64,000 nt of DNA from Marinobacter sediminum (GTDB taxonomy: Bacteria > Pseudomonadota > Gammaproteobacteria > Pseudomonadales > Oleiphilaceae), in assembly GCF_023657445.1 (NCBI RefSeq), contig NZ_JAGTWY010000001.1, forward strand, positions 1,922,001-1,986,000. Direction: 5' to 3'. Positions within the stretch are counted from its first letter, which is position 1. The number at the start of each line of letters is the position of its first letter. A program made the position numbers and the translations under genes. Shown here piece after piece: positions 54,555 through 62,290 of this stretch. Under the pieces are notes generated by a model that worked only from the letters and a program-made list of their open reading frames with translations, searched no databases and was not told the origin of the DNA.

Positions 54555-54850
54555 TGGAAGGCTACTCCATTGTTGTTCTGAGTCGCTGCTCTGATTATTG
54601 GTGTTCACGATGTATTGGAGGCTTCGTGCACAGTGCTCGTGATGTACGCACTATAGCTAACGCTGTCGAACGCTTTGATCAGTCAAAAGTATGATTTTGC
54701 TCTCACTCCCCATTTACCGCCGGGTTTCGTCGCACAGAATCACTATAGACAACAAATTTGGATGCAACCACTTTGGTTTTGGTGGTTTTTTTGAGGTCGG
54801 CCTGGCTCGCAGATCGCAACTTTAGAGGAAGCACCGAGGAGCAATATCGT
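54555..54850. other. Gap upstream of the DUF1302 gene
   Basis: This part of the gap between the thiolase and DUF1302 genes holds no ORF. A TATAGT at 54650-54655 (- strand) is a possible -10 without a matching -35, which would fit an activator-dependent promoter. Beyond it lies the degenerate repeat copy at 54851-54916. Confidence 0.35.
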
Positions 54851-54916
54851 CGTCCGGGACCCACTACGAACACATCCCTGTGCGCTTGGATCCCAACAAC
54901 TATGGCAACAGGCCGG
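54851..54916. repeat. Degenerate copy of the GGA-hairpin repeat element
   Basis: On the - strand the core reads as in the copies at 58780-61640: CCAAGCGCACAGGGATGTG, then TCGTAGTGG and a GGTCCCGGAC arm fragment. The first GGCC hairpin is eroded and the long arms no longer pair. It lies 12 bp after the thiolase stop, in the GGA-sense orientation for that gene. Confidence 0.65.
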
Positions 54917-54928
54917 CCTGCGGCAGAC

Positions 54929-56113
54929 TCACAGCATCTCAATTGCCATAGCCGTGGCTTCACCACCGCCAATGCACAGAGCCGCGATGCCTTTTTTCTT
55001 ACCGTAACGCTGAAGCGCATACATCAGAGTAACCAGCAAGCGAGAGCCTGTAGAGCCGACAGGGTGGCCCTGGGCACACGCGCCACCGTGGATGTTTACT
55101 TTTTCAGGATCCAGGCCGAGCTCACGGATTGGCATCATGGCAACCATGGCGAAGGCTTCGTTGATTTCGAAAAGGTCAACGTCTTCCTTGCTCCAGCCGG
55201 TTTTCCCGAACAGGGTTTCAATCGCGCCTACCGGAGCACAAGTGAACTCTGACGGGTGCTGGGATTGGGCACTGTGGCCGACAACCCGCGCCAGGGGCTT
55301 GAGACCCCGCTTCTCGGCTTCTGACTCGCGCATCAGGACCAGTGCAGAAGCACCGTCGGAGATGGACGATGCATTGGCAGCGGTTACGGTGCCGTCCTTG
55401 CTGAAAGCCGGGCGCAAACCGCGGATTTTTTCCAGGTTGGCATTGAGCGGCTGCTCGTCATCCTCGACGACAACCTCACCCTTCCGGTTTTTCACGGTTA
55501 CCGGAATGATCTCATCTTTCAACAGGCCTTCCTGAATAGCACGCTGGGCGCGCTTCAGTGAGCTGATGGCGTAATCATCCATCTCTTCGCGGGTATAGCC
55601 TTTTTTGTCAGCCATTTCCTGGGCAAACGCACCCATCAGGCGACCGGTTTCCGCATCTTCCAGCCCGTCCAGAAACATATGGTCCTGAGCTGCGTCACCA
55701 GGCCCCATGCGATAGCCTTTACGGGCATTAAGCAACAGGTAGGGCGCGTTGGACATGCTTTCCATACCACCAGCGATCATGATGTCGTTGCTACCGGCCT
55801 TGATCAGATCGTGGGCAAACATGGCGGCTTTCATGCCGGAACCACAAAGCTTGTTGATGGTGGTTGCGCCCGTGCTGTCTGGCAAACCGGCTTTGCGCAT
55901 GGCCTGACGAGCCGGCCCCTGTTTCAGCCCGGCAGGCAGAACGTTGCCCATGATGACTTCCTGAATATCGTCCGATTTCAGTCCCGCACGTTTTACCGCC
56001 TCGGCGATGGTAATGGCGCCGAGCTCAGGTGCAGCAACACCCGCCAGGCTGCCCTGGAATCCGCCCATCGGAGTGCGGACACCGCTGACAATCACTACAT
56101 TATCGTTGCTCAT
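54929..56113 (-). CDS. Acetyl-CoA C-acyltransferase (thiolase)
   Basis: The 394-residue protein has the thiolase active-site set: nucleophile Cys90 in INKLCGSGMKAA, a late GGACAQGHPVGSTGSR His near 350 and a final CIGGGEATAMA Cys near 380. It makes or breaks acetoacetyl-CoA or acyl-CoA; degradative or synthetic use cannot be told from sequence. Start: ATG at 56113; the longer in-frame form was rejected since GAGAG lies just before this ATG. It is followed by the degenerate repeat and then DUF1302. Confidence 0.94.
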   Translation of the reverse strand: MSNDNVVIVSGVRTPMGGFQGSLAGVAAPELGAITIAEAVKRAGLKSDDIQEVIMGNVLPAGLKQGPARQAMRKAGLPDSTGATTINKLCGSGMKAAMFAHDLIKAGSNDIMIAGGMESMSNAPYLLLNARKGYRMGPGDAAQDHMFLDGLEDAETGRLMGAFAQEMADKKGYTREEMDDYAISSLKRAQRAIQEGLLKDEIIPVTVKNRKGEVVVEDDEQPLNANLEKIRGLRPAFSKDGTVTAANASSISDGASALVLMRESEAEKRGLKPLARVVGHSAQSQHPSEFTCAPVGAIETLFGKTGWSKEDVDLFEINEAFAMVAMMPIRELGLDPEKVNIHGGACAQGHPVGSTGSRLLVTLMYALQRYGKKKGIAALCIGGGEATAMAIEML

Positions 56114-58737: not shown

Positions 58738-58779
58738 AGCTCCTCTCCTTACTGGCCGCTACTCACAGATTCGGTGAGC

Positions 58780-58882
58780 GGGGCAGGACGCACCTTTCGG
58801 GAATGTCGGAGGCCAAGGATGGCCGGAGTCAAGCGCACATGGATGTGCTCGTAGCGGTTCCCGGAAGGTGCGTCCTGCCCTG
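58780..58882. repeat. GGA-hairpin inverted-repeat element, copy A
   Basis: Arms 58780-58803 and 58858-58882 are inverted repeats of about 24 bp with one mismatch (GGGCAGGACGCACC on the left). Between them is a core of about 54 bp with two small hairpins: GGCCAAGGATGGCC and GCACATGGATGTGC, each with GGA in or near the loop. The GGA strand is +, antisense to hisC and nif3. It fills the gap between them. Confidence 0.88.
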
Positions 58883-58903
58883 CTCTTGCACAAAGCCAAG
58901 AGG

Positions 58904-59956
58904 TTACAAAGCCTGAAGCCCTTTGATCAATGCATTGTTCTGCTCAGGCGTGCCAATGGTGATGCGCAAAAAATCGCTGATTCTGGGTTTGTTGAAATGC
59001 CGGACGATAATGCCCTGCTCTCGCAGGCCTTTGGCAAGTGTTTCGCCAGGCTGTTCCTTGTGGCGAGCGAAGATGAAATTTGCCCTGGATGGCAACACCT
59101 CGAAACCCAGGCCTTCCAGCGCTTCAGCTACTCGCTCCCGCTCGCTGATTACGCCATCACAGGACTTCCGGAACCAGGCTTCGTCTTCGTACGCAGCTTT
59201 GGCACCCGCCAAAGCCAGCCTGTCGAGCGGGTAACTGTTGAAGCTGTTTTTGACCCGGTTCAGCGCCTCAATCAGGTCCGGGTGACCTGCCGCAAATCCT
59301 ACACGCAGGCCCGCCAGTGAGCGCGCCTTGGACAGGGTTTGCGAAACCAGCAGATTCGGGTATTTATCCACCAGAGTGATCGCACTCTCGCCGCCAAAGT
59401 CGATATAAGCTTCATCGACCACCACGACACGATCCGGGTTGGCCTTCAGGATCTCTTCAACACAGTCCAGGCCCAGGTAACGACCGGTAGGCGCATTGGG
59501 ATTTGGGAAAATCACGCCGCCGTTGGGTTGTTTGTAGTCTTCCGGATTGATTTCGAAGCTGTCTGTGAGAGGTACTCTTTTGCCTTCAATGTTATAGAGG
59601 CCACAGTACACCGGGTAGAAGCTGTAGGTGACGTCCGGAAACAGAATGGGCTCACCGTGCTGGAACAGTCCATAGAATATGTGTGCGAGGACTTCATCGG
59701 AGCCGTTCCCGAGGAAAACCTGCCCGGGTTTGAGGCTGTGGTAGTCCGCGATGGTCTGGCGCAGGCTTTCGCCCTCGGGGTCCGGGTAGAGGCGAAGGTT
59801 GTCGTTCAGTTCGGCCTGGATAGCCTCGATAACCTTCGGGGAAGGGCCAAACGGATTCTCGTTGGTGTTCAGTTTGACCAGGTTGGCCATTTTGGGCTGT
59901 TCACCTGGTACATAGGGGACCAGGTCGTTTACCAGCGGGCTCCAAAACTTGCTCAT
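58904..59956 (-). CDS. hisC: Histidinol-phosphate aminotransferase
   Basis: HisC is the PLP enzyme of the seventh step of histidine synthesis. From the ATG at 59956 the protein has 350 residues; the longer in-frame form reaches into the repeat element and was rejected, as GGAG lies 9 nt before this ATG. Motifs: [11 protein letters not shown] (about 26-36), [17 protein letters not shown], and the PLP-Lys region [14 protein letters not shown]. Length and layout are standard. Confidence 0.95.
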
Positions 59957-59979
59957 CTTATTGCACTCCATTTCGTGCA

Positions 59980-60098
59980 GACGGGCGGCGGACAAGACGT
60001 GTTCCCGGGAACCACTGCAAGCACATCCCTGTGCGCTTGGCTCCGGCCATCCATGGCCTCCGACATTCCCGGGAACACGCCTTTGTCCACCGCCCTGC
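59980..60098. repeat. GGA-hairpin inverted-repeat element, copy B
   Basis: Arms 59980-60011 and 60066-60098 pair over about 30 bp (for example GTGTTCCCGGGAA). The core is the same as in copy A but on the - strand: GGCCATGGATGGCC, then GCACAGGGATGTGC, the latter a match to the CsrA SELEX motif ACARGGAUGU. Here the GGA strand is the his transcript itself. It lies between hisD and hisC. Confidence 0.9.
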
Positions 60099-60166
60099 AT
60101 ACGGTGGTGATAGCTTCTTACGGCGCTACCTGCAAACTAGCCAGCTGCCGCAGCAACCAATACGGA

Positions 60167-61474
60167 TCAGTCTTTAATTCGATACTCGGCGGAACGGGCG
60201 TGGGCTGTGAGCCCTTCCCCTCTCGCCAGCACAGACGCAACACGACCCATACGATCAGCACCCGCCGCACTGAAACCAATGAGGGAAGACCGCTTCTGGA
60301 AGTCATATACGCCCAGAGGAGAAGAGAACCGCGCTGTGCCGCTGGTCGGCAAAACGTGGTTCGGGCCGGCGCAGTAGTCGCCAAGGGCCTCTGCGGTGTA
60401 GCGCCCCATAAAGATGGCGCCGGCGTGGCGGATTTCCTCAACCAATGATTCGGCGTTTTCCACCGAAAGCTCCAGGTGCTCGGGAGCAATGCGATTGGAT
60501 ACCCTGGCCGCTTCACTGAGATCCGCCACCTGAATCATTGCCGCTCGACTGCCCATGGACTCGGCGATGATTTCGGAACGTTCCATGGTCGGCAGCAATC
60601 TATTAATACTTGCTTCGACGGCATCCAGGAATTCCGCGTCCGGGCTAATCAGGATCGACTGGGCCTGTTCGTCGTGCTCAGCCTGCGAGAAAAGATCCAT
60701 GGCGATCCAGTCCGGGTCAGTCTTGCCATCACAGATCACGAGGATTTCGGACGGTCCGGCGATCATATCGATACCAACGGTGCCAAACACTTCCCTCTTC
60801 GCGGTCGCCACAAAGATATTGCCGGGGCCAACGATCTTGTCGACGGCCGGGATCGTTTCTGTGCCATAAGCCAGCGCGCCAACCGCTTGGGCTCCACCCA
60901 CGGTAAACACACGATCGACGCCAGCAATAGCGGCGGCTGCCAGCACCATGTCGTTCACCACACCGTCGGGCGTGGGAACAACCATGACCACTTCGCTGAC
61001 ACCGGCAACCTTTGCCGGAATCGCGTTCATCAGTACAGACGACGGATACGCAGCCTTGCCGCCAGGAACATAGAGGCCCGCACGATCCAGCGGCGTCACC
61101 TTCTGTCCGAGTACCGTGCCGTCTTCATCCTCATACTGCCAGGATTTCTGATTCTGGCGCTCGTGATAGCCCCGGATGCGATCGGCCGCCTTTTCAAGGG
61201 CGATACGCTGGTCTTGAGGAATAGCATCCAGAGCCTTGTGCAACCGATTCTGGTCCATTTCAAGCTCGGCAACACTGCCAACCTTGAGACGATCGAATTT
61301 CTCGGTGAACTCGAGCACCGCAGCATCTCCGCGGGTCTTCACCTGATGCAGGATATGACGAACCGACTCATTCACCTGATGATCAACACTGTCGTCCCAG
61401 GCCAGAAGCTTGGCCAGCGAACTGTCAAAGTCACTTTGGGAGGCGTTTAATCGTGTGATACTGATATCGGTCAT
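60167..61474 (-). CDS. hisD: Histidinol dehydrogenase
   Basis: HisD makes histidine from histidinol in two NAD-dependent steps with zinc. The 435-residue protein has the Rossmann halves and the catalytic region [21 protein letters not shown] and a C-terminal [28 protein letters not shown] segment with the zinc-binding His and Asp. Length is normal. It lies between two repeat elements. Confidence 0.96.
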
Positions 61475-61535
61475 TTTTCAAACCCTGTCTGGGATTATTT
61501 ACTTGCTGCGGCCGGACGATTCAGAAGTTCTGGGA

Positions 61536-61640
61536 AATGCTCGGGCAAGACTTTCCAAAACTGTGCGGAGCCATGGTGGCGGAGCTCAAGCGCCACAAGG
61601 ACGTGCTTGAGCGGGTTTTGGGAAGTCTTGCCCGGGCACT
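61536..61640. repeat. GGA-hairpin inverted-repeat element, copy C
   Basis: Arms 61536-61561 and 61615-61640 pair over 26 bp (CGGGCAAGACTT...). The core on the + strand has GGAGCCATGGTGGCGGAGC and a partly eroded second hairpin CCACAAGGACGTG. It ends 2 bp from the hisG stop codon. The GGA strand is opposite to the his genes. Confidence 0.87.
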
Positions 61641-61642
61641 GC

Positions 61643-62290
61643 TTACTCCGCTACCCGGCGCTTTTCCACTGCAGCGGACATTTTCTCGATTATGGGGTTA
61701 ATTTTCTCGTGTTTCATCTTCATGGACGCACGATTCACCACCAAACGGCTGCTGATATGCTCAATTAACTCACGGGCTTCGAGACCGTTGGCTTTCAGCG
61801 TATTTCCGGTATCCACAATATCGACAATCTCATCCGCCAGGCCGAGAATCGGAGCCAACTCCATCGCACCATAGAGCTTGATAATGTCAGCCTGCCGCCC
61901 CTGGGCCGAATAGTAGCGGCGCGCCAGGTTGACGAATTTCGTGGCAACCTTGATACGACCCGGAGGAGGTGTCTGATCCTTAGGGCCTGCAGTCATCAGA
62001 CGGCAGCGGGAAATATTGAGATCCAGAGGCTCATAAAGCCCCTCGCCACCATGCTCCATCAGTACATCCTTGCCGGTAACTCCCAGATCCGCACCGCCAT
62101 ACTGAACATAGGTTGGCACGTCAGTGGCGCGAATGATGAGCACCCGCACATTGGGGTCCGTGGTGGGAAACACCAGCTTCCTGGATTTCTTGATATCGTC
62201 GACCAGCTCAATCCCGGCCTCAGCCAGCAACGGCAATGTTTCTTCGAGGATTCGTCCCTTCGACAATGCGATGGTGATGGAATCTGTCAT
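61643..62290 (-). CDS. hisG: ATP phosphoribosyltransferase, short form
   Basis: HisG starts histidine synthesis by joining ATP and PRPP. The 215-residue protein is the short form, which needs HisZ as a regulatory subunit; hisZ is not in this window. It begins [22 protein letters not shown] and has the signature [17 protein letters not shown] and a PRPP loop [16 protein letters not shown]. The ATG at 62290 has GGAAGGA upstream; the longer in-frame form was rejected. It lies 29 bp after murA. Confidence 0.95.

Follow-up and report, generated by a model that had tools for sequence, protein, structure and literature searches.

CsrB/RsmZ-type sponge RNAs pack many binding sites for the regulator CsrA/RsmA into one or a few molecules, whereas REP/BIME repeats are intergenic, palindromic DNA units, mobilised by a RAYT transposase, with a bias toward the gaps between convergent genes. 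The Aln1a-c RNAs of Alteromonas exemplify the many-site sponge type in the accessible part of the source (PMC5864184). According to excerpts of earlier work, the CsrA/RsmA consensus is RUACARGGAUGU, with ANGGAN as the shorter form (PMC3791407), and one CsrA/RsmA dimer bridges sites 10-60 nt apart (PMC4066749). A third described system is TwoAYGGAY (Rfam RF01731, clan CL00106), in which an outer stem leads through a three-way junction to a pair of hairpins whose loops are of the CAUGGAUG type; the available excerpts list it in a table as probably an RNA (PMC2864571), describe its external stem as poorly conserved and already predict CsrA binding (PMC4333381). Here, we show that three successive gene gaps in a 64,000-nucleotide stretch of Marinobacter sediminum DNA, the window analysed here, each hold an element that is, judged by model matches and predicted fold, a relative of TwoAYGGAY, and that the structure of this element is under selection at the level of RNA.

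The three gaps, of the nif3-hisC, hisC-hisD and hisD-hisG types (gene names given by an earlier sequence-only reading), contain one element apiece, consisting of a 28-bp arm, a core and a second 28-bp arm. Copy 1 lies on the + strand at 58774..58887 in the nif3-type/hisC-type gap, and its arms (58776-58803 and 58858-58885), core (58804-58857), hairpin 1 (58811-58824) and hairpin 2 (58835-58848) can be read directly from the letters. Copy 2, in the hisC-type/hisD-type gap, is on the - strand at 59983..60095 (core 60012-60065; hairpin 1 60045-60058; hairpin 2 60021-60034, read in the same way), and copy 3 is again on the + strand, at 61532..61644 with its core at 61562-61614, in the hisD-type/hisG-type gap. 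The cores measure 54, 54 and 53 nt, respectively. R1, a covariance model built from 16 copies of the M. sediminum genome, the window copies among them, scores the three at 120.4, 105.5 and 89.7 bits, and their fold energies are better than those of all 200 of their own shuffles (z -9.16, -8.04 and -6.58), which bears out the proposal of one element per gap. The two equal 14-nt hairpins that had been described are exact in copy 2 and recur in copy 1 with one loop base changed per hairpin, but not in copy 3, where hairpin 1 (GCCATGGTGGC) lacks one base of GGA and the motif is retained in hairpin 2 only. A fourth, eroded copy had also been suggested, and we find it as a relic at 54831..54945 on the - strand, at the end of a thiolase-like ORF: it is 81% identical to copy 2 across 53 nt and scores 22 bits with R1 (E = 0.21), without any special fold (z -0.14; 80 of 200 shuffles equally good). 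The orientations were likewise read correctly, copies 1 and 3 being on the + strand and copy 2 and the relic on the - strand, which is that of the his-type ORFs. An Rfam scan of the window gave no family at or above its own cut-off; matches to microRNA families all stayed under the family cut-offs and were taken as chance.

How close is the element to TwoAYGGAY? The full 168-position RF01731 model has matches in 28 of 38 genomes and in none of 14 controls at E <= 1, passing its 43-bit cut-off in seven of the 38 with a best score of 49.8 bits. The M. sediminum genome reaches 41.5 bits at best, and all of its listed RF01731 matches coincide with R1 matches; the window copies, unreported at E <= 10, are too diverged for RF01731 to report. 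At ten loci with RF01731 matches, R1 matches the same place in every case, and one genome (G037) has five RF01731 matches without an R1 match. Two hairpins with AYGGAY-type loops stand on the outer stem of the element as they do in TwoAYGGAY, with strict AYGGAY in the majority of cores only, as Y occupies the second loop position in 92 of 152 cores for hairpin 1 and in 106 of 152 for hairpin 2. Unlike the Cis-reg label that Rfam gives to TwoAYGGAY would suggest, copies of the element occur in both orientations. Many copies per genome are, moreover, unreported for TwoAYGGAY in the open-licence literature searched, in which six core strings also matched no paper, whereas the M. sediminum genome holds tens. 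As far as these searches show, three features are new: the dispersal in many copies, a stem of fixed length that compensates its own changes, and selection specific to one strand. The RNA motif itself is catalogued, which accounts neither for its scatter nor for a stem that always changes and always pairs. The CsrA interpretation given in the sequence-only reading is not new, having been proposed for TwoAYGGAY (PMC4333381, in part), even if its premise, a fit of the loops to the consensus, holds.

The element is common in the genus and scattered beyond it. With copy 1 as query, blastn gave 22 matches in the 3.88-Mb M. sediminum genome, of which 16 are element-like, two are copy 1's own arms and four are chance-like; copy 3 was missed. 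R1 finds about 39 copies at E <= 0.01 (64 candidates scored) and 40 at E <= 5 (150 of 1194 candidates scored), the fortieth being the window relic. Among relatives, R1 matches occur in 42 of 58 genomes, including 36 of 36 from the same genus, at the level of the order in 105 of 293 genomes and 49 of 118 genera (E <= 1e-6, 12 candidates scored), and at the level of the class in 58 of 369 genomes and 52 of 272 genera (E <= 1e-7, 10 candidates scored). A strict core pattern was found in at least 119 stretches of named genome contigs, with Marinobacter as the source of all 80 matches listed. Because R1 counts range from three to at least 64 copies within one genus, those of copy-rich genomes being lower bounds, the element is dispensable. 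In nearly all of the 14 other-genus loci of the order and four other loci of the class that we read, the core is again 54 nt long and some 27-30 arm positions pair. At one class-level homologue (L375 in genome G421), arm pairing extends over about 43 bp rather than the usual 28.

The arms differ between copies and still pair within each copy, as had been claimed, since their sequences compensate. In the alignment of 16 copies, both partners vary in 27 of 28 arm pairs, and pairing is seen in 93% of arm cells. For the structure as a whole the paired fraction of cells is 91%, compared with 34-45% after the partners are shifted by 1-3 columns and with a mean of 65% in 500 shuffles, none of which reaches as high. 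In a model-fitted alignment of 56 rows, both partners change in 28 of 28 arm pairs, three of five hairpin-1 pairs and two of four hairpin-2 pairs. For 147 distinct copies, which are largely top-scoring loci rather than a random sample, the Watson-Crick fraction by arm position from the core is 0.93-0.99 at positions 1-20 and 0.84-0.92 at 21-26, and it drops to 0.76 at 27-28 and to 0.30 at 29. The 11 innermost positions keep their bases, as do 17-18 (GG) and 28 (G), with G in 125, 123 and 102 of the 147 copies at positions 17, 18 and 28, respectively. The conserved positions 6-7, 17-18 and 28 are spaced by 11 bp, which is the repeat of an A-form helix.

Is the pairing maintained in RNA or in DNA? 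Wherever the GGA strand has a G-U pair, the opposite strand has an A-C mismatch, so that the ratio of the two shows the strand whose RNA is selected. On the GGA strand this ratio is 104:22 for arm positions 1-26 of the 147 copies. As these copies had been chosen by a structure model, we repeated the count on copies detected by core sequence only, using nhmmer with 117 training cores on 1.6 Mb, composed of 40 stretches of two relatives, G007 and G017, and 40 stretches at preset coordinates in 21 genomes of the genus. Of 48 matches, 46 with at least 19 of 26 arm pairs were kept and two dropped; R1 is the more sensitive search, with 35 places in the G007 and G017 stretches where the core search gives 21 elements. 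The 46 copies contain 1140 Watson-Crick, 34 G-U, 4 A-C and 18 other arm pairs, some G007 and G017 copies being orthologous and the counts hence not fully independent. The preset stretches alone, with 25 elements, give 23:3, and counted per element 23 have G-U only and two A-C only (p = 2e-5); outside the arms, G-U:A-C is 405:553. The earlier claim of selection on structure is thus supported and can be sharpened: selection acts on the RNA-level structure of the GGA strand.

The loops suggest a candidate partner for such an RNA. Across 152 distinct cores, which came from models that reward the letters of CANGGAYG, hairpin 1 presents C (151), A (152), N, G (151), G (152), A (151), Y (T 132, C 17) and G (152), and hairpin 2 presents C (151), A (151), N, G (151), G (152), A (149), Y (T 94, C 53) and G (151). 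Both loops therefore read CANGGAYG with a free N, GGA is present in both loops of 146 of the 152, and the proposed fit to the CsrA/RsmA motif is supported. The element combines ANGGAN in hairpin loops with paired sites inside the bridging range of 10-60 nt, the loop-to-loop spacing being 24 nt in copy 1. The csrA gene is found in the M. sediminum genome and in 57 of the 58 genomes examined for it; within the class, 52 of 57 genomes with the element and 21 of 23 without it have the gene, which is nearly universal and does not discriminate between them. No csrA match was found in the element-bearing genome G516, which is 98% complete. Most genomes have one csrA match; G051, G617 and G661, all element-bearing, have 9, 8 and 7.

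The explanation we favour, with about even chances of being correct, is that the element consists of small TwoAYGGAY-type structured-RNA units, scattered through gene gaps, that are transcribed and together bind and partly sequester CsrA. Transcripts of the GGA strand would start at a nearby promoter or arise by antisense transcription or read-through, and would fold into a three-way junction of a 28-bp stem of near-arbitrary sequence and two short hairpins, whose CANGGAYG loops, at the copy 1 spacing, one CsrA/RsmA dimer could bridge. As weak evidence, promoter-like scores calculated for 144 copies are slightly raised in the 5' flank on the GGA strand (p 0.001 versus the other strand; 2e-5 versus the 3' flank); opposite-strand scores in the 3' flank are raised too. 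Like CsrB/RsmZ-type sponges, the element carries GGA in hairpin loops that fit the consensus, yet it has two sites per copy in many scattered copies instead of numerous sites gathered on one or a few molecules. Against CsrA sequestration stand the absence of a sense-orientation preference, the dispensability of the element, the lack of a csrA match in G516 and the GGA loss in copy 3. The sequence-only reading had seen antisense copies as a difficulty for a sponge; copies are indeed present both ways, but those antisense to both neighbours also have an excess of G-U over A-C, at 10:2, which weakens the objection. Tentatively, and with less confidence than in sequestration as such, we infer that the copies may form a genome-dispersed CsrA buffer of tens, perhaps hundreds, of units binding one dimer each, in which free CsrA would follow pervasive intergenic and antisense transcription; the 28-bp stem would serve as an RNA ruler, as a stabiliser or as a processing site, free to drift in sequence while paired, and exchange between copies would keep cores alike and arms private.

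The main rival, somewhat doubtful in our view, is a REP-like selfish repeat, for which an enzyme would recognise the folded RNA or a single-stranded hairpin and spread copies into gaps, the CsrA-like loops serving that enzyme or binding CsrA incidentally. Genomic context supports this reading. With genes called by a simple codon-usage gene finder, all 46 core-detected copies are intergenic and none is inside a predicted gene; they are enriched in convergent gaps (14 of 46, compared with 35 of 406 gaps) and sparse in divergent ones (6 of 46, compared with 140 of 406). Relative to the GGA strand, the upstream and downstream neighbours are same/same in 14, opposite/opposite in 12, same/opposite in 14 and opposite/same in 6, that is, without an orientation preference in co-directional gaps. 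Copies less than 600 bp apart have their 5' ends facing in 17 of 17 pairs and in six of six more, some of which may be orthologous, and the next pair, 601 bp apart, has both copies on one strand. The element thus shares with REP/BIME repeats its intergenic position, palindromic form, many copies, inverted pairs and preference for convergent-gene gaps; it differs in its length of about 110 bp, its 54-nt core and its copy-specific arms. Inverted pairs of another, REP-like repeat (GTAGGTCGGATTAG...TAATCCGAC) occur at L048, L149, L153 and other loci of relatives, often between two divergent copies of the element. Different repeats also occupy the his gaps of other species: several copies of a short palindrome of the GGGGTCTGAAGAAA...TTTCTTCTGACCCC type on both sides of hisD at L064 (G002), and a repeat of type TGTAGGAGCGGTTTTAACCGC past hisD at L076 (G006), in a gap where other species have the element.

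Mobility as a whole unit is suggested by one copy in G007 (C1:757417), which matches the unlinked hisG-hisD copy over 108 nt at 91%, with arms to about position 25 on both sides. The other 24 of 25 non-self matches in G007 at E <= 1e-18, eight of the 25 having been aligned, cover 68-98 nt at 86-100%, i.e., core and inner arms only, and the M. sediminum genome has no clear arm-sharing pair among 31 copies (best 11 of 14 variable positions). Same-genome copies with cores at least 94% identical share 6.4 (eight pairs, M. sediminum) and 6.2 (nine pairs, G007) of 14 variable arm positions, compared with 5.0 expected and with 4.4 and 5.1 in other pairs, close to chance and slightly higher. The matches confined to core and inner arms, the lack of a clear arm-sharing pair in M. 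sediminum and the strand-specific tolerance of G-U, which requires the RNA to matter, argue against a REP-like repeat. This alternative, raised in the sequence-only reading, is borne out in part: in the intergenic position, the convergent-gap excess, the lack of orientation preference and the single unlinked look-alike.

As one genome per species was compared, young insertions are not visible. Copies are missing at places where relatives retain them. In a comparison aimed at clean empty sites, 25 M. sediminum loci were paired with G016; R1 finds an intact element in three of them (L124, L131, L141) and a remnant in L123, with flanks too diverged, among the alignments listed, to show target duplications. 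Three element-less places keep one outer arm only (hisG-hisD in G016; 29739 and 109760 in G007, relative to G017), and some absences relative to G017 are consistent with a deletion between two short direct repeats. Twelve G007/G017 pairs were compared. In four of them (119089, 119370, 122971, 104882) the arms are damaged or differ strongly, and simple orthology is doubtful; the remaining eight show compensated, two-sided change at 17 of 224 positions and one-sided change at 15, often in adjacent blocks. At G007:C1:2171193-2171307 and its syntenic G017 locus (L161, L174), the core is inverted and of another subtype between like arms and flanks, which suggests recombination between arms or core exchange. 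Copying of the arms from the insertion site is disfavoured, as positions 17-18 and 28 are conserved and one unlinked copy shares its arms, although the lone outer arm at the three element-less places would fit it.

An element that acts locally, within its own transcript, as an RNase III site, a 3'-end stabiliser or a CsrA-controlled switch of neighbouring genes appears improbable. A fixed 28-bp perfect stem would suit RNase III, a double-strand-specific enzyme, and the nearer gene is on the 3' side of the element in 39 of 46 copies. The element nevertheless has no orientation bias with respect to genes, 12 of the 46 copies are antisense to both neighbours and still bear the RNA signature, and copies are lost where relatives retain them. 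An ordinary terminator was considered and rejected, as no T-run follows the 3' arm, and a fixed end motif past the arms occurs in few copies only. Very improbable is a DNA palindrome without an RNA role, kept perfect by hairpin-templated correction in replication, which the rarity of arm imperfections, the near equality of compensated and one-sided changes with their adjacent blocks, and the inverted core would fit, but which would treat G-T and A-C alike, is largely refuted by the 34:4 asymmetry and finds no C-to-T bias suggested by the flank composition of the GGA strand (A 1627, T 1082, C 1551, G 1260). Such correction may operate in addition to RNA selection.

In conclusion, counting G-U against A-C is an inexpensive way to tell if a palindromic repeat acts as RNA or as DNA, and the element makes a case for asking how near-identical cores coexist with private, perfectly pairing arms. 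If the CsrA-sequestration reading is correct, an orphan Rfam motif, long predicted to bind CsrA, would become a testable regulatory system, and a common intergenic repeat of the genus, scattered in the class, would be a CsrA-interacting RNA and not inert DNA.
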